Assembly (NCBI RefSeq): GCF_963675165.1
Contig: NC_087388.1
Location: forward strand, 5,461,047-5,525,046
Direction: 5' to 3'
Source: Halichondria panicea
Taxonomy: Eukaryota > Porifera > Demospongiae > Suberitida > Halichondriidae
Length of the DNA: 64,000 bases
Numbering within the stretch: the first letter of the stretch is position 1; the number at the start of each line of letters is the position of its first letter. The translations under genes and the position numbers were made by a program. This document shows, piece after piece, positions 27,556 to 62,911 of this stretch. The notes below the pieces were generated by a model. That model worked only from the letters and a program-made list of their open reading frames with translations, did no database searches and was not told the origin of the DNA.

Positions 27556-30500
27556 ATGGCTATGTTAGATCTAGTGGCTTTCTTTGCTTTGTTTCTGCTG
27601 CAAGGAGCAGCTTATTCTCAATCACCCTCCTTTGATTTTAAGATTAGAACTGACTATCTCCCAGGACTGCAAGTGGACTCCACTGGGAGAACATTCCTTG
27701 CTGCAGACAACTACCTGTATAGACTGAATGCTCAGCTAATACAAGAGGAGAGAGTTGATCTAGGATCTTATGTCATTGACCAAGGACTGGCCCTGAGCTC
27801 TACTGGGATGTTGGTGGTGTGTTTAGAGGATCTCTCTTGCTCTGTCTACAATGCAAGCAATTTCAGTACTGGTCCCATCAGGAATATCAGTAATGCTATA
27901 GGGGGAGATCTTAGATTTGGAGCAGCTATCATTACGTCAGGAGACACTTTCTACACTGGAGCAATAACTGGTGTGGGACAGAGAATGGTACTGCAACAAT
28001 TTGGAGAGGGATTCAATAGATCGTCAAACAGCAATCTATCAGACGAGTATAATGAACTGGTTTTTGAGATTAGTTCCTTTGCACGAAACTTTTATGCATA
28101 TGGTGGTTTTGTGAGTGGTGGATTTGCCTATTATATTATCGTCGACTATCGACCTGCTAATGCACGAGCTATAAGACTGCTACGTGTTTGCAACATGCCT
28201 GATTGTGGAGGCCCAAGTACCTGTGGAGTGACTGGTTTGTATGAACTGGGAATCAATTGTGGCTTTCAAACAATCACTGGAGATACTCATGTGTGTGCAG
28301 TGTCATTAGTGGAGGACTTCAGTGGGATATCTGGACCCACTGCTGTGGTAACTGTTTGCTCCAGCAGTACTAACTCTATTTGTGTGGTCAATATCACTGC
28401 TGTCAATGAAGCTATGGACGCTAAATATGACTCTTGTATTGTGTCACGGACTGTTGGAGAAGAAATTGGTTTAGCATGGAGAACAAGCTCAGATAACTGT
28501 GATACCCTGCCGCAGCCTCAGGTACGTTTGTATATGATTATAACATACAGGGTTTTGCAAAATCTTTGCAATATCCCAAAAAAGCGTTTTGCGTTGAGCG
28601 TTCCTTATAAGGTTATCTGTGGTCAACCATAAAGTTGTAGATCTTAGTCAGCATGTCAACAATGCACTATTCTACAAACAGTTGATGGATCAACTTGAAG
28701 ATTCCCAGCAACACTTTGATAAGACAGTCCAAGCAGCTCTGTCTGATGCACTATTCTCCATCTAATAATACCGCTTTTTTCACAAGAAAAAGCCATTTTG
28801 TTTTTGAATTTTGCTTCCTAAGCAGACTTGGCATTTCACCACAATGTGTTTATGACACCACAATGTGTAAACATTAGATATCCATATAAGGAACGCTCTA
28901 CACCCTCTATTTCAAAGATTCTGCAAAACCCTGTACTGGTCTTCAACAAATCATTTATTTTCAGATACCTGTGGACAGATGTAACACACCCAGTCCAGTC
29001 GGTCTTCTCATTCCAAATGGTGGTATTGACATAATAGCACCAGTTCGTATCAACTTTGGAGCCAGCCCTATTCCTGATGCTTCAGTAGCTGTAAAAGTGG
29101 AGCAGTTTTCCTTTGTGTTTGTGGCAACTTTTGATTCGAGGATAAGAGGAATAAGAGGAGTAAGTGCGTAATTGTGTATAATTATGACATTGCTTGTCTC
29201 CACAGTACGATGTCAGTGGTACATTGACCCTGGGAACTGATAGCTCATTCTACAATTTTCCAGTGACCTCTAGGGTATTATATTTGTCATGGCATGAGGG
29301 ACTGAACTACATCACAGCAGCCACTGCAGACACTGTAAGTTTATAATGCTTGTATATGTATGTGTTCTACCCTATCCATTTCACCTCCCCCTCTGAAGGT
29401 GTACCAAGTACCCATAGAGGAGTGTTCCCAGCATATAGACTGTACCAGTTGTACCAATGACCTCAACCCGCTGTGTGGGTGGTGTGTGGTGGAGAACAAG
29501 TGCTCCCGTCAGACGCAGTGTCAGAACTCTAGTCTCATCAAGAGATGGACACAGGAAAATACCAACTGTTTTACTACAACTGTGGATCCTATGCGACTTG
29601 TCCTCGACCCTACAATTCTTGCTAATGTGGTAAGGTATATATGCATTAATGTGACACAGGTCATACAAACTGATCCAACAGTTCACGGTGATCTTGCCTC
29701 ACCTCCTGCATGGAGAAAATATATCCTGTCATCTGGCCGACAGTGAAGGACGTTTCTCACCCATCATAGTACCAGCTGTTGAGATTATCCCAGGAATAGT
29801 GTTCAGTTGTGATATTGAAGGACTGGTACCTGACTACCCTGGAGTGACTGCAACCATCAACCTGGGATTTCAGAGCTCTCTGTTCAATGAGCCATTTAAC
29901 GTTACCAACCAAGCACTCACAATCTACAATTGCTCAGCAGGGAAAAGGTATAGGTACCTCAACCATATTCATGACCTGCTGATCACACTATGAATGTGCA
30001 GCTGTAAGGATTGCCTTAGGCCCAATAGTCCGTGTGGATGGTGTAACCTCAACAAGCAGTGTAGTGGAACAGCAACTCTGTGCAAGAATACGTCTCACTT
30101 CCTACAGGTGATAGCTTGATGACCCCTAGCCTGACTCTCTAATGCCTATACCCCTCTATACAGGTGTCTATATCTACAGACTTCAGAACCCTATGCCCCC
30201 TGCTAGATACGACCCCCTTTGGGGGGCACACTCTACCAGTGAGGGTAGTCCAGGACCTTCGACTGACCACTAGGAACCTGATACCACCAGTAAGTCAACA
30301 TTAACTCTGTACCCTGACCCTTCCATGGCTTCTCTATAGACGGATGGCTTCGAGTATTTGTGTATTGTGAATGGAGTTAGCCTGGCAGCTCAGTATGAGA
30401 ATGAGACCTCTATCCTGTGCAATGTGGGCAGTGGAGACGTAAGTGCTAACACTGTAATACAATACAATGTAATGTAATGTAAACTGCACAAACAGTTTCA

Positions 30501-33500
30501 CAATGACCATTAAATGCTAATTGTGATTTAATTAGTGCTGCATTCTAGTTATCACATTACCATACATGACACAGCTCAACCTGCCTACTGGTAGTGGTAG
30601 CTCTTCTGTGGTTGCTACGGTGATATGGTTCGGGAATGGCATCATCCACCCACTCAGCAGTGTCACACAACAGACTGACAGTACGTACACCATCACAGTA
30701 ACTACAAAAGTTGGACTAACATTTATACACAACCTCTGTTTACCATATGCCCCTCCCCCTCCCCCCAACACACACAATGACATAAAGTTACGTTGTTTGA
30801 TTGTCGTAACTTGGGCAGTGGATGTTCAGAGTGCTTAGCATCCAGACTGGGGTCAAAGTTCACGTGTGGGTGGTGTAGCCTTAGCGACAGCTGTGAGGTG
30901 TTGCAAGAATGCACCAATGATGTTTTTGTTACTGAGGGGAGAAATTGTCCTTCCCCTTTCATCAAATCAATCTCTCCAGAATCTGGTAATCATTATAATT
31001 TTACCTACTATATGCCATGATACTTCCTACACCCACAGGACCAGTTGATGGTGGTACAGCAATCACTGTGATGGGCACTGACCTCGGAGTGACCTTTGCT
31101 GACATTCTGAACGCCACCCTTACATTAGGAGGTGTGGCCTGTACTATCATCAACACCGACTATATACCAGGGAGGCAGTTTGTGTGTGTGACCAACAACT
31201 TTGGAAGTACAGGCAGCAATGTCTTCACTATGGTCCTGTATGGCAATATAGACGTCAATGTAAACGCTGATCCTTTCATTGCGTTGAATCCCTTTGTTAG
31301 TAGCGTCAAACCGACCTTTGGACCCGTGGCAGGGGGTACCAAACTGACTGTGAGGGGTACTGCACTAAGAGTGGGTAACCATGAGAACACTAGAGTCACT
31401 CTGGTCAGTGGAGGGTTAATCTACACCTGCAACGTATTGTAAGTGGCAGTATACGTCTGGAAATGTTGAAACCTTTCCTTGCAGATCAATCTTTTCTCAA
31501 GAGATTGAATGCACCACTACAGCAGCAAACCTCACCTCCGCTGCAGGGGTGGTAGTTACTATTGATGCTGCTAGACTGGACTTTGGAGTGTTCTTCACTT
31601 ACAGTAACAACCCCAATGTAACTGCTGTGCGTCCTAGCAACACCATTCCCAGTGGAGGCATCACACTGACCTTTACTGGAGTGTACTTGGACGTGGTACA
31701 ACAGCCTGTGTTGGAGATCTACCAGCCCATGGAGGAGGATCCTCTGGTAAGCCAGCAACTATAATTATGTCTGTATTATTTACTCTCCCCTACAGAGAAG
31801 CAACTGCAGTGTTGTGGACAATACAACCATCACATGCTTGACTCCTAGTCTGCTAATAACCTCACTGACCCCATTGGACTATGCCCTACTGTTTGATGAT
31901 GTCCCACCTATCACACAAGCACGTTTTCCCATCAGCGTCCAATTAGATCCCTCCAATTTCCGGCTGGAGGGTTCTCAAAAGGTCCCTAATGGCACAGAGA
32001 CGCTCATACGCATTGTGGTATGTAATATTAGCTAGTAAACCGACCCTATTAATTGTTATTGTGTGTGTATCCAGGGTGATAATCTCGACTCAGTGGAGAC
32101 CAGTGAGATACGAGTGACAGTGGGAGGGGAGGAGTGTGTCAAGACACCCAGTAGCGTAAGAGGGAGTGAATTCATCTGTACTGCCCCCTTGGAGCCGCCA
32201 GGAGGGGAAAACCCAGCCAACATAAATGTGTATATAACTATAATTATACGTAACTGTGTCACTGTTCACTTCAGGTAACCGTTGGAAGCAACATCGCTCA
32301 AAAATTGGACCGGCAACTGACTTATACATTTCCTGAGGCAACGGTTTTTGGGCCAACAGTTCCTCTGCAGATCATCATTCCAGTTATTGTCATCATCTTT
32401 ATAATTGTCGTGTGTGTACTGACGATTGCTATTGTCTGCTTGTATCTGAACTCGAGGAGAAAGTCAGTACCAATTTATATGCATCAGCATGAGCAAAGGA
32501 TAGAGCTTACGGCTACTGGGTAAGTAATGATAATATTATATACTGTTCAATTTGCAAATAATTTGTTACAGGAAAACTCATGAGGTAGTCGATGGTAATA
32601 CTACACTCGTTAGTAAGTTTTCTTTTCTACACACACATGTATAGTCCCTGTTACATGCAACAAATTATATTCAGAATCAGAACTTGTTGAGATTGCTGAG
32701 TCCATCCCAGACTCATTCAAAATAGCTGCCTCAAAATTGAAGCTCTCCAGTACTGCAATAGGACAAGGTAAAGAAAGATGTGCAAATAATTTGATTTTGG
32801 GATGTGACTATACAGGTGAATTTGGCGTTGTGTACAAGGGTGTTCTGACAGACTGGAACAAAGTACCTATGCAGGGGGTGGCCGTGAAGACATTAAAAGG
32901 TTATAATTATCATTATTGTTGTGAGATGAATATTACACAATGAAACCTTTTGAACACAGAAACTATAAACTCACGATTATTTCGCGATCATTCCCTCTAT
33001 AGACATGTTAACCTAAATTCCGGTCTGCAGTCAGTTATACATTTTCTGAGCCCTAGAGATTCATTTTTCTGCAATTGTAACACACAACATTTCATTTCTG
33101 ATGAGTTAGTTCTTCATTATTTATACAGGTCTGTTCTCATTGTCGGATGTTCAGAGCATGGTGTGTGAGGTGAACAAGATGCAGGACTTTGACCATCCTC
33201 ACGTCATGTCCCTAATTGGAGTGTGTCTCGATGCTGGCCCCGGTGTTGCCATAGTGATGCCATATATGGCCAATGGCAGCCTTATTAGCTACCTCAAAAA
33301 AGAAAGGAGCAGCCTTGAGTTGGACGATGACTGTGACATAGATCAGGTGTGTGTGGTGTAGGGTGCATACGAGTAGTAAATAGCTCAGTATCTATGACGA
33401 CTACCTTTTGGTTTAGAGCATGTATAAGTAATACTATTTATTGCTTTTTAATAAGTGCTGACATCAGCGTTTTACATTGAAATTGCACAGGAAGCGACTC

Positions 33501-36216
33501 ATCACCAACTGTGCAGATATTTTTCCATATCGCACACCCGGAAGTATTATTGCACACTTGTTATTGCACACTAGGAAGTGATTCTTATTTGGAATAAAAC
33601 GTTTTCAGCAGTGAGAGAACAAGAAAAACATAGTTTACACACTTATAATCATGCATTGCAATGTTTATCAGTCTCTTTTCTTGTTTTCTGATGCTCTGTA
33701 TCACTTCTGTGCTCTTTTTGCAGTGAAGCTGAGGGTCAGGAGGTTGTCAGTGTTCATATTTAATGCATCAAACAGGCATCAGTGTTGGGAGTGGGTGCTT
33801 TGAGCGGAGTATTGCACATGTAGAAGTGTACTGCACCACCATATAAGCCTGTTCAGGCTTGTATAAAGTCGTTTTGGCTTCAAAAACGGTTGTCACACTT
33901 TTCTTCAGTTATAGCGGTGCATGTTTCCTCTTCTGATACACTGGAGCATGATAGAAAGCAAGCACATGCTGTTTATCCTTCAGAACTATCCATTTTCAAA
34001 ACGGGTTGCTGGTTGTCAACGTTTTTCTTGTCTTTTTTTCTTGTCTGTTCTCTACAAAATCTTTAAGTAGCCTTCTGCAAGCTCTCTTGGTGTTCTAGAG
34101 TATTATTTCTTTGTCTTTCTAGCTGTTTTCTTTCTCTTAAACTCGTCTTCAACTGGGAGAACTCAATTTTGTTGCTACGCATTCTTCTGGTTGATAAAGC
34201 AACCGCATGTTGCGCATGCGCAGATTCAACCTGCATTTTGGTTGCCAAGCAATAAATGCATTATCCCATGGATACTGATGATTATCACTCGTCCGTGCCT
34301 AGTAACTGTCACTCGTGCCTTGCAGGCACTCGTGCAGTTACTGCACAGACTCGTGATAATCCTCAGTATCCATAGGATAATATCATAATAATTATGGTAT
34401 TAGTGTGAGCATTGTGTGGGTGTCTCAACAGAAAGGTATGTGGGGCTGCATGATTACTGTGATCCATGTGTATAGAGAGATGCATGCTACATTCCCATCA
34501 GCTATACTGGGTCAAAATATATTTCTTACCTAGCTTGACCACTTGACCAGCCTATTTTACTGAAACAACATGCATCAGCCTTATGGCCTGACCATATTCC
34601 ACAACAAATCACGTTCACTATAGCTATGCATGCATATATATAGTGCAAGGTGTACAAAATGATAGTTAAAACTGGCGCATGCAGAATGCAGGGAAAGAAT
34701 GACTATATAGCTATAATTATCTAGAAAGAATTTTTTCAATTTGTGTCAGCAGCGTGATCGATTGTGGGGATAATACTGACTTGGAGTATATAAAATTATG
34801 ATGAGCTTTTCCAGAACTTAGTCAAAAATCAGAGCACCAATTAATAATTTGTAAAGAAGTGGTTGCCATTGATACAGATTCTGGAAGTGAGGAAACTGCT
34901 ACTAAAGATGTGTCGTCAGATAGCACTGGGAATGGCCTACTTGGCTGAACAGAAGTTTGTCCATCGCGACCTTGCAGCCAGAAACTGCATGTGAGTGAAC
35001 AATTGACAGTGTGCACGAAAGAAATCATGACACTAAGTATAATCATGCAAAGTTCATGTTTTTATAGCCACGGTAACGTTATACTATAGTTGGAGCATTC
35101 TTCCTTGCATGCGACAAAAATTATATCCAATGGTATGCATCGATATTGTAAAAATATCACTAGCATACTAGCTGGTTAGCATTTTACATAATTGTTTCCA
35201 TGAGGTTTTATCTTGACATATAATACATTCAGGCTGGACTCGGGAGGGGGTATCAGGGTGGGGGACTTTGGTTTGGCTGAAGACGTCTATGCTAGCGGCT
35301 ACTTCAGACAGAACGACAGAGCCAATGTGAAGCTGCCCTACAAATGGATGGCCATGGAGAGTCTCAACGATGCCATATTCACAGAAAAAACTGATGTGGT
35401 GAGTCAGTGCATGATCACAAGCTCTATAACTCAGTAATAGCTTTATTTTCGTGAACACGCTCTATCTAACCTCAACCCCTAATTTGTGTCTGAAATACAT
35501 TTTCCTTTCATAATCATTGTTACTTGTCGTCCATGTGCCCATGCAGTGGTCGTATGGTGTGACTGTGTGGGAAGTCTTCAATGGAGGACGGACCCCCTAC
35601 CCTGCTGTGGACCCACACTCCCTCATCCAGCTGCTGGGAGAGGGGCGGAGACTAGAGAAACCTCTCAACGCAGCCTGTTCCGCCGAAATGTGAGTGTACA
35701 CTCTCTGAGTTGAGTATCGTAGCAGTTGCATTGAGCTAGTTGTTGTGTTGGGTAGACTGAGATTTGGAATTACCATTTTGTTCCAACTGACTGTACATCC
35801 CTCTACACTCACTCAGTTCTGAAGTGATGCGTCAGTGCTGGAGGGAGGACCCAGAGGAGAGACCAACCTTCTCACAACTGTCCTCCACTGTGGACAAGTT
35901 ACTGACATCCATTGCTGGCTACACTGAGCTCGGTATGGTGCTACTGAACACAGTTCAAGAGGTGGAGCAGCTCAGTAAGTGCATAATTAAAAGATAGTAT
36001 GCTACTATAAATAGCAGCTCTTAATGAATACTTACTTAGTGTAGTATACTAAGACATGCTAAAAATCATTATTCATTCCATGCTTTTACTGCAGAATGTG
36101 ACAATGTACCTTCACCTACTGAAGACGCTAATCGTTATGTCGATGGTCCACCAGGTCACCCTCTAGCATTCAAAAACAGAATGTACGAAGAAGAATTTAC
36201 TGCAACAGACGATTAA
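27556..36216 (+). CDS. RTK-3: class A sema/PSI/IPT receptor tyrosine kinase, intact
   Basis: Exons: 27556-28521, 28965-29159, 29206-29334, 29399-29629, 29682-29947, 30002-30107, 30164-30289, 30340-30438, 30575-30680, 30788-30985, 31039-31438, 31485-31746, 31796-32017, 32075-32227, 32275-32519, 32572-32612, 32675-32767, 32816-32899, 33129-33346, 34878-34990, 35233-35398, 35547-35689, 35817-35974, 36095-36216. Total 4842 bp, 1613 aa. Architecture as RTK-2, with TM about 1186-1211 and kinase about 1273-1571 including [17 protein letters not shown] and [10 protein letters not shown]. The tail reads [15 protein letters not shown] with tyrosines at RYVD and RMYEEE. Introns 1 and 19 carry insertions (28548-28933; about 33437-34385). 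From about exon 5 onward it is nearly identical to RTK-5, while exon 1 differs in sequence and length. Confidence 0.92.
28548..28933. mobile_element. 386-bp Tc1/mariner-like MITE in RTK-3 intron 1
   Basis: Termini CAGGGTTTTGCAAAATC and its inverse (GATTCTGCAAAACCCTG), with inner arms GAGCGTTCCTTATAAGG and its near-inverse. TA is duplicated at 28546-28547 and 28934-28935. RTK-1 and RTK-5 show the empty site (CATACTGGTC). Confidence 0.85.
33437..34385. repeat. About 0.95-kb insertion in RTK-3 intron 19
   Basis: It is missing from the otherwise nearly identical intron of RTK-5, where GTAATACTATATAATTATGG is continuous. The right part has an inverted repeat (CCCATGGATACTGATGATTA and its near-inverse, about 34266-34378). 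No coding sequence recognised; exact ends uncertain. Confidence 0.65.
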
Positions 36217-37530
36217 CTAATTATAGCCTTTAGCTAGTGAGTTGTCCCTGTACATATAGCGTGTATATAAACGTACAATTCCAGCTGCTTTAATCTTTGG
36301 CACAACCGTGCATGATACAATCAGTTTACTTTATTCTTTATTAGTATCATGCATGTATACACATGGTCACCGTAGCCTATTATTGTTTTACACAATAAAG
36401 TCACATGCAATGTTTCCCGTCTTAATAATTTTGTCCTCAATTAACTATTTTCACATGCAGTGCCTATAATATTATAATTATAGGCAGTCTTTTTACAATT
36501 TGAACAAAAAATATTCCGGAATATTGGTTTGGCACAGACCTAGCAATAGGCAAGGGAATATTGATGTGTTTACTGATAATTATTGATAGTAGCATGATGC
36601 ATAAGTGACATTCCAATGATTGTTATGACAGTACACATGCAGCCAGTCATAATAATGCATTTATGTACTGACAATTCGGTGTACAGCTTACGTTTTCTGC
36701 TGCATGGGGTCGGCTGCTCTGGTTGTCATGGTAACCTGGACGCATCAACCACCCACTGAGCAACATATTGAAACAAATTTCAGGTATCATTTCTTTCTGT
36801 CAACAATTATTATCTGCATGGATAGATGCTTCTAGACAGTCTAGACAATCCTTTACAGGTGATTTATACTGATAGCCATGATTTGACCAGTGGCAGCAGG
36901 GTATATATGATTAGTGATTGTGTGTGTGTGTGTGCATGGACACACAAATATGAGCTGTTTGAGCGAACTAGACACTTTCATCAGTTTTTCACGGATTGCT
37001 CGAGACAGTAGTAGTCACCTATAGTCATTCTCGATTCACCCATAATAATAATGCACTGAATAAGGTCATTACGGTAAAAAGTTATACTGTATCCATTTTG
37101 CTCCTTGTGCAATCAATAAATGCTCTATCATGAGTTAAGAATTGCACAATAATTACACAGTACTACATGCCGTATATCGAATGACTGATTTATAAGTGCA
37201 TCCTCGAATATAAGCGTATATAGAGCAGCCTCAGCTCTGCTATTGAGCCTATGAATAAATTACGTGCTCGGAATAATTTTAGTCGAATAGGAGGTAAGTA
37301 TCTAATGGTTATTGTCCATTTTTGGTAAAGATCATTGCATTAAGTTTTGCATAACGACGTTCTCATGGCTGAAAGTTGAATTATGGATCAATTAAGAAAA
37401 CACTGTGTCCAGTTGTGTGTGCTGTATTATGTCTATTATGAAGTATACGTACAAAGGGTATCCATGCATGCATGTACTTTATTAGTATATAGCTACTAAT
37501 TAAAACATGGCTTATGTTTTATTTAATGCA
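36217..37530. other. Class A 3' flank of RTK-3 and spacer
   Basis: Up to about 37010 it is homologous to the RTK-1 and RTK-5 flanks. The rest has no recognisable gene. Confidence 0.6.
36394..36399 (+). terminator. Polyadenylation signal of RTK-3
   Basis: AATAAA about 180 bp after the stop codon, in the block conserved among the class A genes. Confidence 0.6.
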
Positions 37531-37600: not shown

Positions 37601-37612
37601 AACTACGCTCTA

Positions 37613-37816: not shown

Positions 37817-37849
37817 TATATAGTCTAATTTCTCGTTCCACGCCTTCCC

Positions 37850-38058
37850 TGGCACTGACCTCGGAGTGACCTTTGCTGACATTCTGAACGCAATCCCATT
37901 AGGAGGTGTGGCCTGCACTCCTATCAACACCGACTGTATATACCTAGACTCGCAAGCCGTCACTGTTGCAGGCGAACTGTTCGCCTGCAACAGTGACGGC
38001 TTGCGAGTCTAGTATATACCAGGGAGGCAATTTGTGTGTGTGACCAACAACTTTGGAA
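37850..38058 (+). pseudogene. Broken RTK IPT exon (exon 11 fragment)
   Basis: GGCACTGACCTCGGAGTGAC through CAACTTTGGAA matches the start of exon 11 of the full RTKs. It has small deletions, is split by a 67-bp hairpin element, and ends abruptly at 38058 where ITPR coding sequence starts. Confidence 0.85.
37945..38011. mobile_element. 67-bp hairpin element with 9-bp target duplication
   Basis: TAGACTCGCAAGCCGTCACT and its perfect inverse form almost the whole element, around a GGCGAACTGTTCGCC centre. GTATATACC is duplicated at 37936-37944 and 38012-38020. The intact RTK exon has this target sequence once. Confidence 0.9.
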
Positions 38059-40104
38059 CGAACAGGGGAGCAAGGTCAACGACTTTTTCAAAAGGACCAA
38101 CAAGCTCCACAAAGAAATGGAGTGTCAGAAAGACCTGAGAAGTATTGTAGGCGGATTACGAGTACCTATAATTATGTTGTAGTCTGAGTGGCCTGTGCAT
38201 GTGATACAGAGCAAAACAAAGTTAGTTCAAATTGAACCACTGTTATCAAGTTATAGCTGTTTAAATTAAGAGTTGAGTTTATGATTGTACAGTGTATCGC
38301 GCTTGCACTGTCTAGGTACATGTATAGGTGTAGCATCTTCGAACTTTATAGTTCTATAAAATTGAATCAATATATACGTGTGTGTATAGAAACTTTTCTA
38401 GGCCCCGATAAATTACTCTTTTTTTCTAAATGTGCTTATATTAATCCCCCAAAAAGTTGACATAACAATTAACACAAAATTAAAACGTGCAACTGACACA
38501 CGACATAGTTAGTGTTATCTATTTTTTGCCCAGAAATTTCGTTATGCAAAATTTAATGTAATGATCTTTACCAAAATGAACATTGTGATGCCCAATTTCT
38601 ATTGAGACCCCTGTTATGCTAAAATTTAATTATTCCAAGTATAATTTATCAGGGCCTAACTGATAAATTACTCCTCCTTCTTTATCGGCTCCCCTCTCCC
38701 TCAGATCGAACGGTCCAATATAAGATAGCTCGTCACATGGGTCTATGTCCAGTATCTCGTTCTACCTTGCCTTCTGTCTCAACATGATGGTGGTCTTTCT
38801 CTACCCCTTCAACAAGGGCTCCAATTACATCAGTGAGTACTGCACAAGTGCTTCTGTTAGCATAATTATAGCACTGTTATAGTACACACTGTATGACTGA
38901 ATAGATCTACTTGTACTTCATTTCCCTTAGTTAGCATTTACTCCGAGTACTTTAAAATGTATAATTATACATTGTATAATAATTGTATCATAGCCACCAT
39001 GTACCCCGATGGCTATGAACTTAATTTGTGCAAGAGCTGATCGAGCTACTTTTATCAAAATAATTATTGGTCCTCATAATTATAAACGTGCATTTATTCT
39101 TACTGGTGAAGTATTTATGCCCCTCCGATAATTCCAGACTCTATGGATTTGAAGACGTTCATGTTGCTATGGATGGTGTTGATTGCTTCTATACTACTAC
39201 TAATCTATGGAGACAGGAAACACATCAAGCGCTACTCTGTGTCTTTAGCGGCACTGGCTGTTATCAGGAGTCTGGTTACCTTGGGGATGCAGCCGACACT
39301 ATTCCTGCTCGGATTCTTACAGGTATACTCCTATCTTAGCGGCCCCTCACTCAAGTATTTTAATAAAGGAAAATCAAAATTTGAGGTTTTACCAATTCAA
39401 GATTATGATAGTTTTTGCATAATGCGGACGGTATACTGGTAGCGTGTGTTTTGATTGTAGCTGTGGACGAATCTCTGTTTAATTTTGAGGCTTATAGAAC
39501 ATGTTAAGGTGAACACCTTTTATCCAATAATCTTACCTCCCCCCCCCCCACACACACACAGCTTGTCAACAAAGGCGTGTTCATAGTGAGTCTATTATCA
39601 AATCGTGGCATCCTTCGTAAGCTGTGGACTGTTAGACCACGACGGGCCACAAAACATTATTTTCAGTTTATTCGTGAGCTGAGCTCTGACCTCTTCTTCA
39701 GTCCCCACCTCCCTTATCATTGGATGCAGTTCACATTCTGTTTCCTGGGGTTCAGTATACACGAGTTCTTCTACTGGGTACTGGTGAGTGTGTGTGGAGT
39801 GTGGTGTGTGGGTGTGGTGTGGAGTGGGCGTGCTTGCGTGTGTTGTATGGTGTGTGGGTAGGTAATTGAATGTGTTTACTAGTGTAGTGGGGTAATTATG
39901 TAGCTTCTGTTTACATTCAGTCTAGAAATTGATTTTGAATCCATGCAGCTGTCACACACAATAGCCTTGAAACCAATTACATGTGCTTCAACCTGTGTTC
40001 ACTGTTTGTCTAAACTTAACCAGAGTTGAACACTATGGACAGTCTTCACTGCATGTACATTCATATGAATATAGCTACCATTAGAATCCACGATTGTACA
40101 CACA

Positions 40105-46100: not shown

Positions 46101-49100
46101 CATGATCAACTCCCCCTTGAAGGAAATTTATACAAATCATTTATGTTTCCTAATAGAAATTGTGGGTTATAGCTGCTTAAAACTGGCTTTCTTTAGCTGT
46201 AAGGATTGCCTCGGGCCCAACAGTCCATGTGGATGGTGTAACCTCAACAAGCAGTGCAGTGGAATATCAGCTCCTTGCAGGAATGCATCTCACTTCCTAC
46301 AGGTGAGCTCAGTGACGTGTGATGACCTGTATATAAGTCCATCTGTACAGGTGTCTGCAGGCAACGACTTCACTGCCGAGTGCCCCTTGTTGGACACTCC
46401 CCCTTCTGGTGGGTACATTCTTCCAGTAAGGGTGGCCCAGGACCTCCGACTAACTACCAGGAACCTTATCACCTCCGTAAGTCACATGACTTCCGTATCT
46501 CATTTTTATGGCTTCCCTCTTCATTAGACGGATGGCTTCGAGTACTTGTGTGTTGTGAATGGAGTTAGCCTGACAGCTCAGTACGAGAACGAAAACTCCA
46601 TTCTGTGTACAGTGGGCAGTGGACAAGTGAGTGGGGATAATAATGTTCTTATAGTGTATGCCTAGTTGTGTTTACTATCTCATCCCTAAGTACTTATCTT
46701 GGTCACTGGAATATCACATATAAGTATTTTCAACACAAGACAATACAATTGCTTGCCTTAAATAGTGATGATATTGTATGCAGCTCACACTACCTGCTGG
46801 TGTTGGCAGTTCCACCGTAGATGTCAAGGTGATGTGGTCAGGGAATGGCATCAACCACCTACTGAGCAGTATCATGCAACAGACCAATGGTATACATACG
46901 CAGCTATATATAGTAATTACACACATTGACACATGCAGCCTCTGTTAATAAAAGCTCCGCGTACGCTGATGCCTCGGTATAGAGGCATCACGTGCAACTT
47001 TTTCCGCCTCTTTTCTCCCTCTTATATACAGCTACGTACTAATAGCTAGCATTATTACAGAGCTACCTACTAGGTAGTATGGCTAAGTTATATCAACAGA
47101 TTATCCACTAGTCTGAAGAGACTGCAATGGCCTTCAAAGTAAGCAAAAATTAATCTAGCTATAACTCGACGAAGCTTATTTTGCAAATCCACAAATAGAA
47201 ATGTTATATACTATAGTGAGCAGTTGTAGCTAGCAGCCTAGACAGACAGACACACACACACACATGCACTACTCGCTTGGGCATGCGACAACTGAAACAT
47301 AATTATTATGCTTACCCCACCTCCCCCTATACACACAAAGTGACGCTGTATGATTGTCGTGATTTGGGCAGTGGATGTTCAGAGTGCCTTGCGTCCACAT
47401 TGGGGTCAGAGTTCACATGTGGGTGGTGTGCGATTAGAGAAAGCTGTGAGGTATTACAAGAATGCACCAATGATGTTTTCATTACTGAGGGGAGAAATTG
47501 TCCTACCCCTTTCATCAACTCAATCTTTCCAGAATCTGGTAATCATTACAACCTGTATATTGTATGTATAATGATGTGTCATACACACCACTCCACCCAT
47601 AGGACCAGTTGAGGGTGGTACTGCAATCACTGTGAAGGGGACTGACCTTGGGGTGACCTTTGCCGACATTCTGAACGCCACCCTTACATTAGGAGGTGTG
47701 GCCTGCACTCCCATCAACACTGACTATATACCAGGGAGGCAGTTTATGTGTGTCACCAACAATTTTGGAAGTACAGGCAGCAATATCTTCACTATGGTCC
47801 TCTATGGCAATAGAGACGTCAATGTAAACGCTGCTCCTTTCATTACATTGAATTCCTTTGTTAGTAGCGTCAAACCGACCTTTGGACCCGTGGCAGGGGG
47901 TACCAAACTGACTGTGGGGGGTAAAGAGTTAGGAACTGGTAACCTTGAGAACACTAGAGTCACTATAGAAATCAATGGAGGGCCAACCTATCCCTGCAGC
48001 ATGATGTAAGTGGCTATAATTATTAAATAACATGCAGTAGACAATGTTTAAACCTTTCCGTGCAGATCAGTCTTTTCTCAAGAGATTGAATGTACCACTA
48101 CGGCAGCAAACCTCATCTCCGATGCAGAGGTGGTGGTCAATATTGATAATGCTAGACTGAATTTCGGAGTGGTGTTCAGTTACCGTAACAATCCCAATGT
48201 AACTACCGTGTTTCCTAGCAACACCATTCCCAGTGGAGGCATCACACTGACCTTTACTGGACTAGACATGAACGTGGTACAACAGCCTGTGTTGGAGGTG
48301 TATAGAGGAGCGGGGTCTCCTCTGGTGAGCCAGCAATAATGTTTGTACATGATGTACTTACTCTCTCCCCCTATTACAGAGAAGCTACTGCATTGTTGTG
48401 AACAGTACCGCAATCACATGCTCTACTCCTAGTCTAGGGACGACCTCACTGACCCCATTGAACTATTCCCTGTTGTTTGATGATGCCCCACCCACTACAC
48501 AAGCACATCTCCCCATCACCGTCCAATCAGATCCCTTCAATTTTACACTAGAGGGTTCTCAAGAGGTCACCAGTGGCACAGTGACCCTCATACGCATTGT
48601 GGTACGTCCTATAGCTAGTATACTGACGCTATATATACTGTTACCGTGTTGTGTATCCAGGGTGATAATCTCGACTCAGTGGAGACCAGTGAGATACGAG
48701 TGACCGTGGGAGGGGAGGAGTGTGTCAAGATACCCTCCAATAGTAGAGGTAGTGACATCATCTGCACTGTCCCCTTGGAGCCGCCAGGAGGGCAGGAACT
48801 AGCCATCATAAATGTGAGTAACTATCTAAAAATAACTGTTTGTCACTGTCTCCTTCAGGTGACCATTGGGAGCAACATATCTCAAGTATTGGACCGTCAA
48901 CTGACTTATCCGTTGCCTGAGGTAATGGGTGAGCCAACAGTTCTTCTGGAGATAATCATTCCAGTTATTGTCTTTATCTTTGTATTGGTCGTGTGTTTAC
49001 TGATGATTGTGATTGTCTGCTTATATCTGAACTCAAGGAGAAAGTCCACGTCGATTGCTATGCACCAACAAATGGTGGAGCTTGTGGCTACTACTGGGTA

Positions 49101-53046: not shown

Positions 53047-53050
53047 CATG

Positions 53051-53594: not shown

Positions 53595-55494
53595 CAGTGG
53601 CGTGTACAATGGCTTTGGGGGCTTGAGCACCCCCCTGTCCTCCCAGACAACTATGAAACTAATCGTATCACTCAGTAGCTAGCTAGCTAACTGTGCAGCT
53701 CTATCTCATTGACACAACGATTATAAGTCATGACCACGCCCAATTGAGCATGTGCAATCAGTATTGCCATTCCAATGTTGTTATGTAATGCTAATTGCAT
53801 GCATAATAGATCCACTGCACTATCCCAGTCACCTCTTGCTCCACTGAGAGATACTGAGAAGCAATGATTAACACTAGAATGACTGGACATCCCCATTGTG
53901 ATTGACCAGTTTGCTAGGATGTACCCCAGAAGAATAGTGCATGGAGATCCTACAAGATGACTGACTCATAATTATGTCTTATTATCACGCTATGCATGCA
54001 TTAGATCCCATTTGAGTGTATTTAGCAGGGAACTATGAGCTATAGTACCGATACTATAGATTACTCTGGGCTACAAACTACAACATTATACATTGTATTG
54101 TCATTTACAAGAAGATACACAGAAAAATTATTGTAGCTAGATGCTTTGTCTAGTAACATAGTAACAGAACTAGAATGGAAGAGAGAAGCTCTAGAGGAGA
54201 ATAGTAGGAGCCGCTCTTTTCTTGGGCAGTGTGCTGTACTTTTTTGGTGCAAGGCTGCATGGGGGAGGAGTAGCCTCGATCCCAGGCCGAGTTTTCGCTT
54301 TTATAACGGTTAGGCGAACAACTGGGCCTGGTACTAGTTGTCTGCGCATGCGTCAAATTTTCATTGTATATTTGTGGTCGGCAAAAATATTTAATAAATC
54401 AATAATGGAAATTTGTACACAGAAAATGCACAGAGTGAGTACACAAAAGATGCACATAGGGAGCTGCTTCACAAAGGCCTGGGGAGTTGCCAGTTGTGCT
54501 GCAGCACAATTACAGTGACCCAGGGCAACTTCAGGATGATTGAATGCCTTCAAATTACGTTTCAAAAAGATTTAGCAGGCTGCTGGACTTCTCTGATTCT
54601 AGGCCCCAACTCGTAACTCATTGCTTGAGAAAACGTAGATTCTCTTGATGTCTCTGAGCTACCCAGCAACGCTCGAATGAGCAGGTCATACTCCAGTCCT
54701 GTGTCTGTGAGTATAGGACAATATTAAAAGAAACCAAAGACGGTTAAACCCTTACCTCAAACTGTCCAGTCTCGTCCGTTAGTATAGCCAAGAGGAGCAC
54801 TGTTGGGATAGCTGGATATTAGCCATTGCTCCTGTACAGAGAAGTAGACATTTTAAATACGTGTAGATCTATACATATTAAATTTCTCGGTTATAGTGTC
54901 ATTGTCGACGAGCTGATGATGGCAGCACCAAGTTCTCTAGCTCACACTCTTCACTTAATCCACCATATTAATGATGAAACTATAGTCTACCTACATTCTT
55001 GCCAAACATGAACAAGACTTGATAGCATAGCCGGCCATAGGGCCCACACAAAAATATCTGACCTTAACAAGCTTGACAAAGCTTTATACCTCTTCCCTTG
55101 TTGTTCAGTCTTCAGAATAAGCTTCAGAGAAGAGAGAAGCTTCAGCTAAGAGCCATTCCAATCGATTCCAATAATGATAAAACGGGAACTGACTTCTAGT
55201 ACACGATAGTACACGAATATAAATGTCACGAAAGTGAACGAGAATATCCATTCGTCAGAATCTGACGAACGACTGACGCATGCGCAGACAACTAGTACCA
55301 GGCCCAGTTGTTCGCCTAACCGTTATAAAAGCGAAAACTCGGCCTGGGATCGAGGCTAGGGGGAGGAGCTGGATGTATGAAAGATACGCCGCAATAAATG
55401 CGGGGGCGTAAAATCGCGCGCGCTATGCGCGCGGCTCCATTTTTTTTCTGCACTTTTGAGCACCCTCCTGCTTCAATCTCTAGAAACTCCCCTG
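53595..55494. repeat. Older insertion hosting a nested Mutator-like element
   Basis: It starts CAGTGGCGTGTACAATGG and ends AAACTCCCCTG, with inverted GAGCACCCCC-type motifs near the ends. The RTK-1 flank is continuous at this place (ATAATAACAGTGAAG). The Mutator-like element at 54271-55358 lies within it. No clean target duplication could be defined. Confidence 0.5.
54271..55358. mobile_element. Mutator-like (Pack-MULE-like) element, 1088 bp
   Basis: About 85-bp terminal inverted repeats identical to those at 25372-26446. The 10-bp target GGGGGAGGAG is duplicated (54261-54270 and 55359-55368). The interior differs from the other copy by few substitutions and a 13-bp insertion near 54870. It carries the same minus-strand exon-like pieces. 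Different flanks prove an independent insertion. Confidence 0.85.
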
Positions 55495-55515
55495 AATTAA
55501 CAGGGAACATACCAA

Positions 55516-55566
55516 TGCTGCTAAGTTTGTATTTAAGGTTACCCTAATTGTCTGATGCTAGAATAG
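55516..55566 (+). promoter_or_regulatory. Conserved class A 5' flank of RTK-5
   Basis: GCTGCTAAGTTTGTATTTAA through GATGCTAGAATAG matches the RTK-1 flank, although everything just upstream is transposon sequence. The regulatory information kept is therefore short. Confidence 0.5.
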
Positions 55567-58500
55567 ATGGCTATGTTAGTGGCTTTCTTTGTTTTGTTGT
55601 TTCTGCTGCAAGGAGCAGCTTTATATTCTCAATCACCCTCCTTTGATTTTCTCCCAGGACTGCAAGTGGACTCCACTGGGAAAACATTCCTAATTGATGC
55701 AGACAACTACCTGTATAGACTGAATGCTCAGCTAATACAAGAGGAGAGAGTTGATCTAGGAGCTACCTATGTCATTGAACAAGGACTGGCCCTGAGCTCC
55801 ACTGGGATGTTGGTGGTGTGTTTAGAGGATCTCTCTTGCTCCGTCTACAATGCAAGCACCATCAGTGCTGGTCCTATCTGGAGTGTCAGTAATGCTATAG
55901 TAGGATATTTTAACTCTGGAGCAGCTATGTTTATGTCAGGAGACAGTTTCTACACTGGAGCAATGACTGATATAGATCTAGGTCAGAGAATGGTACTGCA
56001 ACAATTCGGACAGGAGTTCAGTAGATCTTCTGTAAACAATCAATCAGATATGCGTAATGAACTGGTATTTGAGATTAGTACCTTTGGACGAAACTTTTAT
56101 GCATTTGGTGGTTTTGTGAGTAGTGGATTTGCCTATTATGTTGTTGTCGATTATCAACCTGCTGATGCACGAGCTATCAGACTATTACGTGTTTGCAACA
56201 TGCCTGATTGTGGAGGCCCAAGTACCTGTGGAGTGACTGGTTTGTATGAACTGGGAATCAATTGCGGTCTTCAGGGGATCACTGAAGATACTTGTTTGTG
56301 TGCAGTGTCATTAGTGGAGGACTTCAGTGGGATATCTGGACCCACTGCTGTGGTAACTATTTGCTTTGGCGGTACTAATTCTATTTGTCTGGTCAATATC
56401 ACTGCTGTCAATGAAGCTATGGACGCTAAATATGACTCGTGTATTGTGTCACGCACTGTTGAAGAAGAAATTGGTTTAGCATGGAGAACAGGCTCTTCAG
56501 AAAACTGCGATACCCTGCCTCAGTCTCAGGTACGTTTGTATATAATTATAGCATACTGGTCTATTTATATAACATCAACAATTCACAGGAAACAGTGGAC
56601 ATATGTGACACACCCAGTCCAGTCGGCCTTCTCATTCCAAATGGTGGTATTGACATAATAGCACCAGTTCGTATCAACTTTGGAATTGACCTTGTCCCCT
56701 TTGCTTCAGTAGCTGTGAAGGTGGAGCAGTTTTCCTTTGTGTTTGTGGCAACTAATGATTCTAGAATAAGAGGAGTAAGTCCATGATTGTGTATAATTAT
56801 GACATCATGCTTGTCTTCACAGTACGATGTCAGTGGTACCTCGACTCTGGACACTGATAGCTATTTCTACAGTCAGCGAGTGAGATATGATGTATATCTT
56901 TTGTCATGGCATGAGGGACTGAACTACATCACAGCAGCCACTGCAAACTCTGTAAGTTAATTATGGCATGTAAGCATATATTATTATATGTCCTATATCC
57001 TATCCATGCTTTATACCCCTTTGTAGGTATTCCAAGTACCCATAGAGGAGTGTTCCCAGCGTATAGACTGTACTAGTTGTACCAATGACCTCAACCCGCT
57101 GTGTGGGTGGTGTGTGGTGGAGAACAAGTGCTCCCGTCAGACGCAGTGTCAGAACTCCAGTCTCTCTAGTAGATGGGTACAGGACAATGCCAACTGTTTT
57201 ACTACCACTGTGGATCCTATGCAGCTTGTCCTCGACCCTGCAATTCTTGCTAATGTGGTAAAAGACTTGCATGTCCATGCATTAATGTGACTGTCTGAGG
57301 TTATATAAACTATCCTCACAGGTCACGGTGACCCTGCCTAACCCCCTGCCTGGAGAGAATATCTCCTGTCATTTGGCGGACAGTGAAGAACGTTTCCCAC
57401 CCATCATAGTACCAGCTGTTGAGGTCACTCCAGGAATAGTGTTCAGTTGTGATATTGAAGGACTGGTACCTGACTACCCTGGAGTGACTGCAATCATCAA
57501 CCTGGGATTTCAGAGCTCTCTGTTCAATGAGCCATTTAACGTTACCAACCAAGCACTCACAATCTACAATTGCTCAGCAGGGAAAAGGTATAGGTACCTC
57601 AACCATATTCATGACCTGCTGATCACACTATGAATGTGCAGCTGTAAGGATTGCCTGGAGTCCAACAGTCCGTGTGGATGGTGTAACCTCAACAAGCAGT
57701 GTAGTGGGACAGCAACTCTGTGCAAGAATACGTCTCACTTCCTACAGGTGATAGCTTGATGACCCCTGACTCTCTAATGTCTATATCCCTCTATACAGGT
57801 GTCTATATCTACAGACTTCAGAGCCCTATGCCCCCTGCTAGATACGACCCCCTTTGGGGGGCACACTCTACCAGTGAGGGTAGTCCAGGACCTTCGACTG
57901 ACCACTAGGAACCTGATACCACCAGTAAGTCAACATTAACTCTGTACCCTGACCCTTCCATGGCTTCTCTATAGACGGATGGCTTCGAGTATTTGTGTAT
58001 TGTGAATGGAGTTAGCCTGGCAGCTCAGTATGAGAATGAGACCTCTATCCTGTGCAATGTGGGCAGTGGAGACGTAAGTGCTAACACTGTAATACAATAC
58101 AATGTAATGTAATGTAAACTGCACGAACAGTTTCACAATGACCATTAAATGCTGATTGTGATGTAATTAGTGTTGCATTCTAGTTATCACATTACCATAC
58201 ATGCATGACACAGCTCAACCTGCCTACTGGTAGTGGTAGCTCTTCTGTGGTTGCTACGGTGATATGGTTCGGGAATGGCATCATCCACCCACTCAGCAGT
58301 GTCACACAACAGACTGACAGTACGTACACCATCACAGTAACTACAAAAGTTGGACTAACATTTATACACAACCTCTGTTTACCATATGCCCCTCCCCCTC
58401 CCCCCAACCACACAATGACATAAAGTTACGTTGTTTGATTGTCGTAACTTGGGCAGTGGATGTTCAGAGTGCTTAGCATCCAGACTGGGGTCAAAGTTCA

Positions 58501-61500
58501 CGTGTGGGTGGTGTAGCCTTAGCGACAGCTGTGAGGTGTTGCAAGAATGCACCAATGATGTTTTTGTTACTGAGGGGAGAAATTGTCCTTCCCCTTTCAT
58601 CAAATCAATCTCTCCAGAATCTGGTAATCATTATAATTTTACCTACTATATGCCATGATACTTCCTACACCCACAGGACCAGTTGATGGTGGTACAGCAA
58701 TCACTGTGATGGGCACTGACCTCGGAGTGACCTTTGCTGACATTCTGAACGCCACCCTTACATTAGGAGGTGTGGCCTGTACTATCATCAACACTGACTA
58801 TATACCAGGGAGGCAGTTTGTGTGTGTGACCAACAACTTTGGAAGTACAGGCAGCAATGTCTTCACTATGGTCCTGTATGGCAATATAGACGTCAATGTA
58901 AACGCTGATCCTTTCATTGCGTTGAATCCCTTTGTTAGTAGCGTCAAACCGACCTTTGGACCCATGGCAGGGGGTACCAAACTGACTGTGAGGGGTACTG
59001 CACTAAGAGTGGGTAACCATGAGAACACTAGAGTCACTCTGGTCAGTGGAGGGTTAATCTACACCTGCAACGTATTGTAAGTGGCAGTATACGTCTGGAA
59101 ATGTTGAAACCTTTCCTTGCAGATCAATCTTTTCTCAAGAGATTGAATGCACCACTACAGCAGCAAACCTCACCTCCGCTGCAGAGGTGGTAGTTACTAT
59201 TGATGCTGCTAGACTGGACTTTGGAGTGTTCTTCACTTACAGTAACAACCCCAATGTAACTGCTGTGCGTCCTAGCAACACCATTCCCAGTGGAGGCATC
59301 ACACTGACCTTTACTGGAGTGTACTTGGACGTGGTACAACAGCCTGTGTTGGAGATCTACCAGCCCATGGAGGAGGATCCTCTGGTAAGCCAGCAACTAT
59401 AATTATGTCTGTATTATTTACTCTCCCCTACAGAGAAGCAACTGCAGTGTTGTGGACAATACAACCATCACATGCTTGACTCCTAGTCTGCTAATAACCT
59501 CACTGACCCCATTGGACTATGCCCTACTGTTTGATGATGTCCCACCTATCACACAAGCACGTTTTCCCATCAGCGTCCAATTAGATCCCTCCAATTTCCG
59601 GCTGGAGGGTTCTCAAAAGGTCCCTAATGGCACAGAGACGCTCATACGCATTGTGGTATGTAATATTAGCTAGTAAACCGACCCTATTAATTGTTATTGT
59701 GTGTGTATCCAGGGTGATAATCTCGACTCAGTGGAGACCAGTGAGATACGAGTGACAGTGGGAGGGGAGGAGTGTGTCAAGACACCCAGTAGCGTAAGAG
59801 GGAGTGAATTCATCTGTACTGCCCCCTTGGAGCCGCCAGGAGGGGAAAACCCAGCCAACATAAATGTGTGTATGACTATAATTATACGTAACTGTGTCAC
59901 TGTTCACTTCAGGTAACCGTTGGAAGCAACATCGCTCAAAAATTGGACCGGCAACTGACTTATACATTTCCTGAGGCAACGGTTTTTGGGCCAACAGTTC
60001 CTCTGCAGATCATCATTCCAGTTATTGTCATCATCTTTATAATTGTCGTGTGTGTACTGACGATTGCTATTGTCTGCTTGTATCTGAACTCAAGGAGAAA
60101 GTCAGTACCAATTTATATGCATCAGCATGAGCAAAGGATAGAGCTCACGGCTACTGGGTAAGTAATGATAATATTATATACTGTTGTTCAATTTGCAAAT
60201 TAATTTGTTACAGGAAAACTCATGAGGTAGTCGATGGTAATACTGCACTCGTTAGTAAGTTTTCTTTTCTACACACACATGTATAGTCCCTGTTACATGC
60301 AACAAATTATATTCAGAATCAGAACTTGTTGAGATTGCTGAGTCCATCCCAGACTCATTCAAAATAGCTGCCTCAAAATTGAAGCTCTCCAGTACTGCAA
60401 TAGGACAAGGTAAAGAAAGATGTGCAAATAATTTGATTTTGGGATGTGACTATACAGGTGAATTTGGCGTTGTGTACAAGGGTGTTCTGACAGACTGGAA
60501 CAAAGTACCTATGCAGGGGGTGGCCGTGAAGACATTAAAAGGTTATAATTATCATTATTGTTGTGAGATGAATATTACACAATGAAACCTTTTGAACACA
60601 GAAACTATAAACTCACGATTATTTCGCGATCATTCCCTCTATAGACATGTTAACCTAAATTCCGGTCTGCAGTCAGTTATACATTTTCTGAGCCCTAGAG
60701 ATTCATTTTTCTGCAATTGTAACACACAACATTTCATTTCTGATGAGTTAGTTCTTCATTATTTATACAGGTCTGTTCTCATTGTCGGATGTTCAGAGCA
60801 TGGTGTGTGAGGTGAACAAGATGCAGGACTTTGACCATCCTCACGTCATGTCCCTAATTGGAGTGTGTCTCGATGCTGGCCCCGGTGTTGCCATAGTGAT
60901 GCCATATATGGCCAATGGCAGCCTTATTAGCTACCTCAAAAAAGAAAGGAGCAGCCTTGAGTTGGACGATGACTGTGACATAGATCAGGTGTGTGTGGTG
61001 TAGGGTGCATACGAGTAGTAAATAGCTCAGTATCTATGACGACTACCTTTTGGTTTAGAGCATGTATAAGTAATACTATATAATTATGGTATTAGTGTGA
61101 GCATTGTGTGGGTGTCTCAACAGAAAGGTATGTGGGGCTGCATGATTACTGTGATCCATGTGTATAGAGAGATGCATGCTACATTCCCATCAGCTATACT
61201 GGGTCAAAATATATTTCTTACCTAGCTTGACCACTTGACCAGCCTATTTTACTGAAACAACATGCATCAGCCTTATGGCATGACCATATTCCACAACAAA
61301 TCACGTTCACTATAACTATGCATGCATATATATAGTGCAAGGTGTACAAAATGATAGTTAAAACTGGCGCATGCAGAATGCAGGGAAAGAATGACTATAA
61401 TTATAGCTATAATTATCTAGAAAGAATTTTTTCAATTTGTGTCAGCAGCGTGATCGATTGTGGGGATAATACTGACATGGAGTATATAAAATTATGATGA

Positions 61501-62911
61501 GCTTTTCCAGAACTTAGTCAAAAATCAGAGCACCAATTAATAATTTGTAAAGAAGTGGTTGCCATTGATACAGATTCTGGAAGTGAGGAAACTGCTACTA
61601 AAGATGTGTCGTCAGATAGCACTGGGAATGGCCTACTTGGCTGAACAGAAGTTTGTCCATCGCGACCTTGCAGCCAGAAACTGCATGTGAGTGAACGATT
61701 GACAGTGTGCACGAAAGAAATCATGACACTAAGTATAATCATGCAAAGTTCATGTTTTTATAGCCACGGTAACGTTATACTATAGTCGGAGCATTCTTCC
61801 TTGCATGCGACAAAAATTATATCCAATGGTATGCATCGATATTGTAAAAATATCACTAGCATACTAGCTGGTTAGCATTTTACATAATTGTTTCCATGAG
61901 GTTTTATCTTGACATATAATACATTCAGGCTGGACTCGGGAGGGGGTATCAGGGTGGGGGACTTTGGTTTGGCTGAAGACGTCTATGCTAGCGGCTACTT
62001 CAGACAGAACGACAGAGCCAATGTGAAGCTGCCCTACAAATGGATGGCCATGGAGAGTCTCAACGATGCCATATTCACAGAAAAAACTGATGTGGTGAGT
62101 CAGTGCATGATCACAAGCTCTATAACTCAGTAATAGCTTTATTTCGTGAACACGCTCTATCTAACCTCAACCCCTAATTTGTGTCTGAAATACGTTTTCC
62201 TTTCATAATCATTGTTACTTGTCGTCCATGTGCCCATGCAGTGGTCGTATGGTGTGACTGTGTGGGAAGTCTTCAATGGAGGACGGACCCCCTACCCTGC
62301 TGTGGACCCACACTCCCTCATCCAGCTGCTGGGAGAGGGGCGGAGACTAGAGAAACCTCTCAACGCAGCCTGTTCCGCCGAAATGTGAGTGTACACTCTC
62401 TGAGTTGAGTATCGTAGCAGTTGCATTGAGCTAGTTGTTGTGTTGGGTAGACTGAGATTTGGAATTACCATTATGTTCCAACTGACTGTACATCCCTCTA
62501 CACTCACTCAGTTCTGAAGTGATGCGTCAGTGTTGGAGGGAGGACCCAGAGGAGAGACCAACCTTCTCACAACTGTCCTCCACTGTGGACAAGTTACTGA
62601 CATCTATTGCTGGCTACACTGAGCTCGGTATGGTGCTACTGAACACAGTTCAAGAGGTGGAGCAGCTCAGTAAGTGCATAATTAAAAGATAGTATGATAC
62701 TATAAATAGCAGCTCTTAATGAATACTTACTTAGTGTAGTATGCTAAGACATGCTAAAAATCATTATTCATTCCATGCTTTTACTGCAGAATGTGACAAT
62801 GTACCTTCACCTACTGAAGACGCTAATCGTTATGTCGATGGTCCACCAGGTCACCCTCTAGCATTCAAAAACAGAATGTACGAAGAAGAATTTACTGCAA
62901 CAGACGATTAA
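55567..62911 (+). CDS. RTK-5: class A sema/PSI/IPT receptor tyrosine kinase, intact
   Basis: Exons: 55567-56529, 56589-56774, 56823-56951, 57027-57257, 57322-57587, 57642-57747, 57799-57924, 57975-58073, 58214-58319, 58426-58623, 58677-59076, 59123-59384, 59434-59655, 59713-59865, 59913-60157, 60214-60254, 60317-60409, 60458-60541, 60771-60988, 61574-61686, 61929-62094, 62242-62384, 62512-62669, 62790-62911. Total 4830 bp, 1609 aa. Domains as in RTK-3; all kinase motifs are present ([23 protein letters not shown]). It has the most compact introns of the five and no intronic insertion seen. The sema exon begins [20 protein letters not shown] and lacks the residues between SFDF and LPGLQ seen in RTK-3. 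The exon 10 acceptor (ACATAAAG) is weak, with its pyrimidine tract about 20 bp upstream, as in RTK-3. Confidence 0.92.

Follow-up and report, generated by a model that had tools for sequence, protein, structure and literature searches.

A clustered array of plexin-type receptor tyrosine kinases with variable tips, probably for recognition, in the sponge Halichondria panicea

The window analysed here is a stretch of 64,000 nucleotides from the sponge Halichondria panicea (contig NC_087388.1, here C12, positions 5461047-5525046; genome 131 Mb in 39 contigs). It carries five receptor genes, R1-R5, the RTK-numbered copies (RTK, receptor tyrosine kinase) of a preliminary description of the same DNA. 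The predicted receptors join a plexin ectodomain (a sema-like domain, three PSI domains and IPT repeats) to an active-looking tyrosine kinase of MET/AXL type. The array is wider than the preliminary description recognised, as the five genes belong to a cluster with 28 open first exons. We propose, with a probability of about two in three, that the array is a clustered repertoire in which variable tips on a plexin ectodomain, carried by a MET/AXL-type kinase, probably recognise variable partners. In this one genome we see a predicted gene structure, exchange between copies that has left a mosaic, a kinase under constraint and a sema-like tip that has diversified; a role in recognition would be the likeliest reading of these.

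Gene models, protein architecture and extent of the array

Comparison of the window with itself identified five similar gene units. R3 served as the reference and was modelled from conservation between copies with hand curation; its exon edges are predicted. The model has 24 exons, introns that are all GT-AG and a single open frame of 1613 amino acids, and intact 24-exon frames of ~1,600 residues are predicted for 5/5 window genes. Mapped onto 15 copies, it gave eight intact 24-exon frames, in the five window genes and in C12:5452984, 5526433 and 5266684-minus. Six further copies, partly fetched or mapped, contain no stop within the mapped exons. Exon 9 of copy 5536001 could not be mapped and the joined frame breaks there, leaving that copy without a model.

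1425-8997, + strand: R1, plexin-ectodomain receptor tyrosine kinase; 24 predicted exons, 1601 residues, intact
14234-23788, + strand: R2, R1-type receptor gene; 24 predicted exons, 1602 residues, intact
27556-36216, + strand: R3, R1-type receptor and reference model; 24 predicted exons, 1613 residues, intact, GT-AG introns
43189-51911, + strand: R4, R1-type receptor gene; 24 predicted exons, 1606 residues, intact
55567-62911, + strand: R5, R1-type receptor gene; 24 predicted exons, 1609 residues, intact
27556-28521, + strand: R3 exon 1, coding for the signal peptide and the larger part of the sema-like domain (residues 1-322 of the ~430 preceding PSI 1)
R3 exon 1, most variable segments: residues 26-35, 138-139, 172-175, 239-245 and 269-272
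28965-29629, + strand: R3 exons 2-4, coding for PSI 1 and the C-terminal portion of the sema-like domain; R3 and R5 still diverge here
32275-32519, + strand: R3 exon 15, transmembrane helix (residues ~1186-1208) and juxtamembrane segment
32675-35974, + strand: R3 exons 17-23, tyrosine kinase domain (PK_Tyr_Ser-Thr, residues 1275-1544, E 1.3e-80), catalytic motifs present

Pfam identifies three PSI domains, four TIG/IPT domains and the tyrosine kinase in the R3 protein. Against PDB sequences the R3 ectodomain aligns with plexin-A2 over residues 220-1050 (E 2e-63). A 456-residue piece running from the end of the signal peptide through PSI 1 aligns with plexin-B1, mostly in its last part and the PSI domain (E 8e-15); the N-terminal sema blades give a weak collinear match to plexin-B1 in the first blade only. 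Kinase scores are nearly equal for MER (222 bits), MET (214), AXL (211), RON (209) and RET (208) among the best 60 of 753 matches, where the highest total, 308 bits, is that of a chain containing two EGFR kinases of 152 bits each. The catalytic motifs, including DFG, are kept in 8/8 fully modelled copies. At least two types of kinase tail occur.

The cluster extends well beyond the window, and the genome-wide counts of exon matches are lower bounds. R3 exon 1 matches at least 43 places, 42 on C12 and one, weak, on C2; they comprise 29 near-full open copies, one with a stop (locus L034) and 13 pieces. Of the 30 best exon 1 loci 29 are open, 28 of them at 4.56-5.57 Mb of C12 and one at 6.74 Mb, and all 29 encode distinct mature proteins. 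Exon 12 is found at 40 places or more (34 on C12, six elsewhere). The exon for the kinase N-lobe occurs at no fewer than 92 places, of which 40 are at least 85% identical (33 on C12, seven on C2, C4 and C5). On contigs C1, C6 and C11 there are more clusters of kinase exons related to these, with identities mostly of 63-78%.

The locus at 6.74 Mb of C12 is the nearest relative of exon 1 found outside the array. It aligns with R3 over residues 36-1032, at 57-66% identity in eight of nine aligned blocks and 44% in the other (one overlapping minor match excluded). A plexin RasGAP domain lies downstream on the same strand, and the genome search with the kinase N-lobe exon gave no match near this locus. 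A run of N between the ectodomain and RasGAP halves could hide exons; an open frame of 1817 residues there was rejected on account of that run. We infer that the two halves form one gene, which is most simply, and probably, a true plexin ~1.2 Mb from the array. Plexin RasGAP domains, which the array receptors lack, were found at two loci in the genome, both on C12. Most simply, the array would derive from a plexin ectodomain that gained a kinase.

Mosaic exchange between copies

R3 and R5 had been described as nearly identical from about exon 5 to the 3' untranslated region, and R2 and R4 from exon 12 on. Both statements hold. R3 and R5 differ at 134/1477 aligned bases in exons 1-4 and at 32/3321 in exons 5-24 (Fisher p 1e-41). 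Their introns differ at 22/158 bases in the exon 1-4 part against 14/1676 in the exon 5-24 part (introns 1 and 19, of unequal length, were excluded, as were very unequal introns generally). In 150-bp bins exon 1 begins with 300 bp at 97-98% identity; the values are then 82-96% from ~27850 to 29800 and mostly 96-100% from there to 36811, ~600 bp beyond the stop, with one bin of 89% at 36550. Synonymous divergence (dS) between the two genes is 0.11-0.18 in exons 1-4, 0.06 in exons 5-9 and 0.003-0.029 in exons 10-23. R5 and the upstream copy 5452984 show the same step (83/1490 differences in exons 1-4, 30/3321 in exons 5-24), and kinase exons 17-23 of R3, R5 and 5452984 have no amino-acid difference. 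R2 and R4 differ at 267/2764 bases in exons 1-11 and 45/2005 in exons 12-24 (p 3e-27).

29800-36811, + strand: R3 tract near-identical to R5 and to C12:5452984, from exon 5 to ~600 bp past the stop; the right edge is the end of the alignment
57440-63562, + strand: R5 counterpart of the R3 tract; left boundary approximate
18500-22256, + strand: R2 tract 91-100% identical to R4 (~47940-51684), from exon 12 onward; resumes at 23608-23807 with exon 24

Since introns and synonymous sites shift along with the coding sequence, recombination rather than selection alone made the mosaic. When variable sites were permuted, the longest shared run was reached in 0/1000 permutations for both R3/R5 and R2/R4; as 18/21 pairs tested gave the same outcome, the test alone is not specific. 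The divergent first part is real, as are the in-frame length changes after the SFDF or FQDS start and around residues 115-165, and in R3/R5 it spans exons 1-4 rather than exon 1 alone, where it had first been placed. Uniform divergence along the genes, set beforehand as evidence against the proposal, was not found. R3 intron 19 carries a 0.94-kb insertion (33441-34377) that R5 lacks.

Exchange reaches the whole gene. R1 and its twin at 5526433, just beyond the window, differ at 1/1506 bases in exons 1-4 and at 2.6-7.3% in exons 12-16. Separate trees were made for four segments of 12 copies (exon 1, exons 5-9, exons 10-14, kinase), and in the approximately unbiased test every segment rejects the topologies of the other three. 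Two limits apply: each segment's own tree was built from the same data, and the program recommends more resamplings than the 5000 used. In the Shimodaira-Hasegawa test one tree survives rejection for exons 5-9, and two do for the kinase. For these 12 copies mean dS comes to 0.219 (exon 1), 0.258 (exons 2-3), 0.30-0.33 (IPT stem), 0.444 (transmembrane segment) and 0.230 (kinase), a pattern that suggests wider exchange at the two ends of the gene than in its middle. Because its dS is below that of the IPT stem and the transmembrane segment, exon 1 also seems to have been exchanged between subfamilies. Shared runs beyond the global 5% threshold occur in exon 1 in 21/406 pairs of the 29 copies (14 of these pairs >100 kb apart, 11 on opposite strands). 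Many of these runs lie in conserved framework, which makes them moderate evidence for exchange. The best exon 1 match shifts between 150-bp windows; R3 and locus L023, 258 kb off and on the other strand, are 99% identical over 150 bp. A single donor of the whole sema cassette was sought among the 30 exon 1 loci and rejected, the best overall identities being 86.2% for R3 and 92.6% for R5.

It is possible, if somewhat short of an even chance, that these chimeras arose by unequal crossing-over alone, its breakpoints falling within genes, and that strict gene conversion is unneeded. This would account for a ~16-kb stretch, running from ~exon 6 of R5 into the gene after it, that matches the upstream copy and R1 mostly at 97-100% and has its left edge inside R5; it also agrees with the right edge of the R3/R5 tract being the end of the alignment and not a drop in identity. 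However, that tract is only ~7 kb long with both edges in or just beyond one gene, and a patch of 91-97% identity (R1 4800-6000) lies inside an otherwise 95-100% identical R1/twin block. Conversion fits both better. The identical upstream flanks of R3 and R5 were dropped as proof of a recent two-sided duplication, as they are independent transposon insertions.

The preliminary description saw here conversion of the signalling half coupled to divergence of the tip. Low dS in the 3' half of R3/R5, constraint on the kinase and exon 1 sites with dN>dS (below) agree with this. It does not stand as a rule, since exchange is not confined to the signalling half, as R1 and its twin, exon 1 dS and the kinase tail types indicate.

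Selection on the sema-like tip and the proposed function

Over the 66 pairs of the 12 copies the mean ratio of non-synonymous to synonymous divergence (dN/dS) is 0.59 in exon 1, 0.67 in exons 2-3, 0.40 in PSI 1, 0.33 in exons 5-9, 0.48 in exons 10-14, 0.43 in the transmembrane segment and 0.18 in the kinase. Inclusion of the plexin and of two further copies gives, in the same order, 0.55, 0.60, 0.36, 0.32, 0.47, 0.44 and 0.18. Judged by these ratios, the kinase is strongly constrained.

Exon 1 was examined in 29 copies with our own grid of synonymous and non-synonymous rates, fitted with and without a class of dN>dS. Twice the log-likelihood difference (2dlnL) is 41.2, and 11/316 sites have a posterior >0.9. 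The value is 29-62 under other kappa values, 35.4 without the plexin and 33.4 without both the plexin and the copies at 4.56-4.88 Mb; cutting exon 1 into 2-4 parts with separate trees gives summed values of 40.7-44.5. The maximum in 60 nulls simulated without dN>dS is 10.1. Under this model a dN>dS class in exon 1 has firmer support than any individual site does. Purifying selection across exon 1, the other outcome set beforehand against the proposal, was not found; sites with dN>dS are present. The variation is clustered, with 24 forms among the 29 copies at residues 26-35 and 23 at residues 239-245, in a framework of 11 invariant cysteines.

Several observations weigh against reading the array as a repertoire with a selected sema-like tip. 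(i) Pfam Sema has no match in the R3 protein at E up to 1, nor on single exons, a 27-row profile of exon 1 matched no solved structure in the PDB, and an AlphaFold model of exon 1 from the five window rows was not used, its mean predicted local distance difference test score being 36.8. (ii) R1 and its twin reverse the R3/R5 pattern, the sema half matching and the stem differing. (iii) The average dN/dS of exon 1 is below 1. (iv) The simulated nulls give up to seven sites >0.9 (mean 0.6) against the 11 observed, so that single sites are unsafe; they also contain no recombination, which can mimic positive selection, an effect that separate trees lessen and do not remove. (v) In the 12-copy set 2dlnL is 0.0 for exon 1 and -0.2 for the kinase. 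The exon 1 signal needs the larger set, and the kinase sequences are at 12 copies only. Twenty random 12-copy subsets of exon 1 scatter between 0.3 and 17.9, indicating that the 12-copy test is underpowered.

Some of these points would be expected from ordinary concerted evolution of a large, redundant receptor tyrosine kinase family, in which purifying selection and conversion maintain the kinase half, the ectodomain drifts under relaxed constraint and there is no recognition repertoire. A mean dN/dS below 1 in the sema part, exchange throughout the genes, exon 1 included, and the null result with 12 copies all suit it. We nevertheless consider it unlikely. The 29-copy test of exon 1 lies far above the 60 simulated nulls, variation is concentrated in a few segments within the framework of invariant cysteines, and 29/30 of the best exon 1 loci are open. 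Purifying-looking sites in exon 1 (166/316 with the plexin, 135/318 in a second run) are also unlike general relaxation.

We therefore favour the repertoire with variable tips and propose how it might work. The array shows block duplication and a mosaic exchange whose breakpoints fall near exons 5 and 11/12. Each copy would present a different set of surface loops to ligand at its sema domain, and clustering of the receptors would turn on much the same kinase. Unequal exchange and gene conversion would renew the tips, the signalling half being kept uniform within subfamilies. Likely partners would be microbes, neighbouring cells or self/non-self.

Other heads, neighbouring features and known systems

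Three of the loci outside C12 that bear exon 12 (L051, L052 and L053) were fetched. All three match R3 from ~residue 655 on (IPT, PSI 3, further IPTs, transmembrane segment and kinase) and not in the sema half. Fifteen open frames were chosen by eye from them and 14 were scanned for domains, in sets of nine and five. In the nine, SRCR domains were found in two L053 frames, Sushi domains in two L053 frames and a Sushi domain in one L051 frame. In the five, no other head was found for L052, one upstream frame each of L052 and L051 being blank. L052 has a helicase-like frame on the opposite strand. In L053 the second SRCR exon and the first shared exon are on the same strand and ~200 bp apart, an arrangement that makes one gene of SRCR and shared chassis likely. 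SRCR domains are abundant in the genome (213 matches among 150 scored of 1364 candidates). Other gene content likewise suits a sponge, with three matches to nuclear-receptor DNA-binding domains, in keeping with the few nuclear receptors of sponges, two weak matches to innexins, and none to Cys-loop receptors in a search whose control gave none either. At C5:2.32-2.44 Mb related kinase exons are preceded by three SRCR matches, 3-9 kb away and in the same orientation, which suggests a second SRCR-kinase array. A broader reading, in which one IPT-transmembrane-kinase chassis bears interchangeable plexin or SRCR/Sushi heads as a sponge self/non-self or symbiont receptor repertoire, is in our view quite unlikely as a whole. 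Least probable by far is an assembly or haplotype artefact, in which mis-joined alleles would yield extra copies or near-identical halves; near-identical blocks do exist (R1 and its twin are mostly 97-100% identical over 9.8 kb), but the copies lie on one contig with differing neighbours, indels and insertions, and the window frames are intact.

The window also contains gene fragments and repeats. A kinase remnant block is repeated at its two ends:

1-784, + strand: kinase remnant upstream of R1; its exon 19-like piece starts 38 bp ahead of the window and ends at 178, its exon 24-like piece is at 671-784
63587-64000, + strand: kinase remnant downstream of R5; exon 19-like at 63587-63802, exon 24-like piece just past the window

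No match to exons 20-23 was found in either remnant. A lone fragment of IPT exon 11 lies between R3 and R4 (37851-38060). R3 and R5 are each flanked upstream by a 1,076-bp element (25372-26447 and 54271-55359) whose terminal inverted repeats are 86 bp long; the 40 scored of 715 candidates genome-wide are near-full copies of 97-100% identity, and it is a young, probably non-autonomous DNA transposon. A long (CA)n array at ~10100-10600 is open in several frames through repetition only.

Among the open-access papers listed in our searches we found no report of a sponge plexin-kinase array, a scope outside which most subscription papers fall. The available text of PMC8662651 names a sponge-specific Src family and holds no comparable array, and the word kinase is absent from the main text, as available, of PMC10855680. 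In H. panicea itself, a plexin-group gene and a Sema-domain gene are reported in the available part of PMC8242945 to be raised after bacterial lipopolysaccharide.

The array offers concrete candidate receptors for sponge recognition, in which the head varies, the kinase is under constraint and the chassis is probably used again with SRCR/Sushi heads. Hydractinia allorecognition genes and sea-urchin Sp185/333 likewise form clusters with gene exchange and a variable recognition part; the domains differ, and the array is known here from genes alone. MET and RON have the same plan of Sema, PSI, IPT, transmembrane segment and tyrosine kinase. The array kinase scores near MET, RON, MER, AXL and RET and is not assignable to MET over AXL/MER, and the array has three PSI domains, as plexins do. 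The ectodomain is common to plexins and the array; the cytoplasmic RasGAP that defines a plexin is replaced in the array receptors by the kinase.

The closest parallel is Met-LP, the name given to the plan of a plexin ectodomain with a receptor tyrosine kinase (PMC6374515). The available text of that paper assigns Met to Bilateria and Met-LP to Lophotrochozoa and Echinodermata, with one Met-LP each in annelid and mollusc and four in starfish, and proposes two independent fusions; for the sponge Amphimedon it gives plexins and semaphorins and no Met or Met-LP. The predicted array receptors have the features that define Met-LP, namely a complete plexin-type ectodomain with alternating PSI and IPT domains, weakly matched in its N-terminal blades, a transmembrane helix and an intracellular tyrosine kinase with catalytic motifs. 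We would call them Met-LP-like, a likeness of domain plan that does not imply a common fusion with the bilaterian Met-LPs. This would place plexin-kinase fusions outside Bilateria, with a probable plexin relative of the ectodomain kept on the same chromosome. The Met-LPs of annelids, molluscs and starfish share with the array a plexin-type ectodomain, one transmembrane helix and an intracellular tyrosine kinase, whereas the array is a cluster of 28 open first exons, in a sponge, with a strongly variable sema-like exon.

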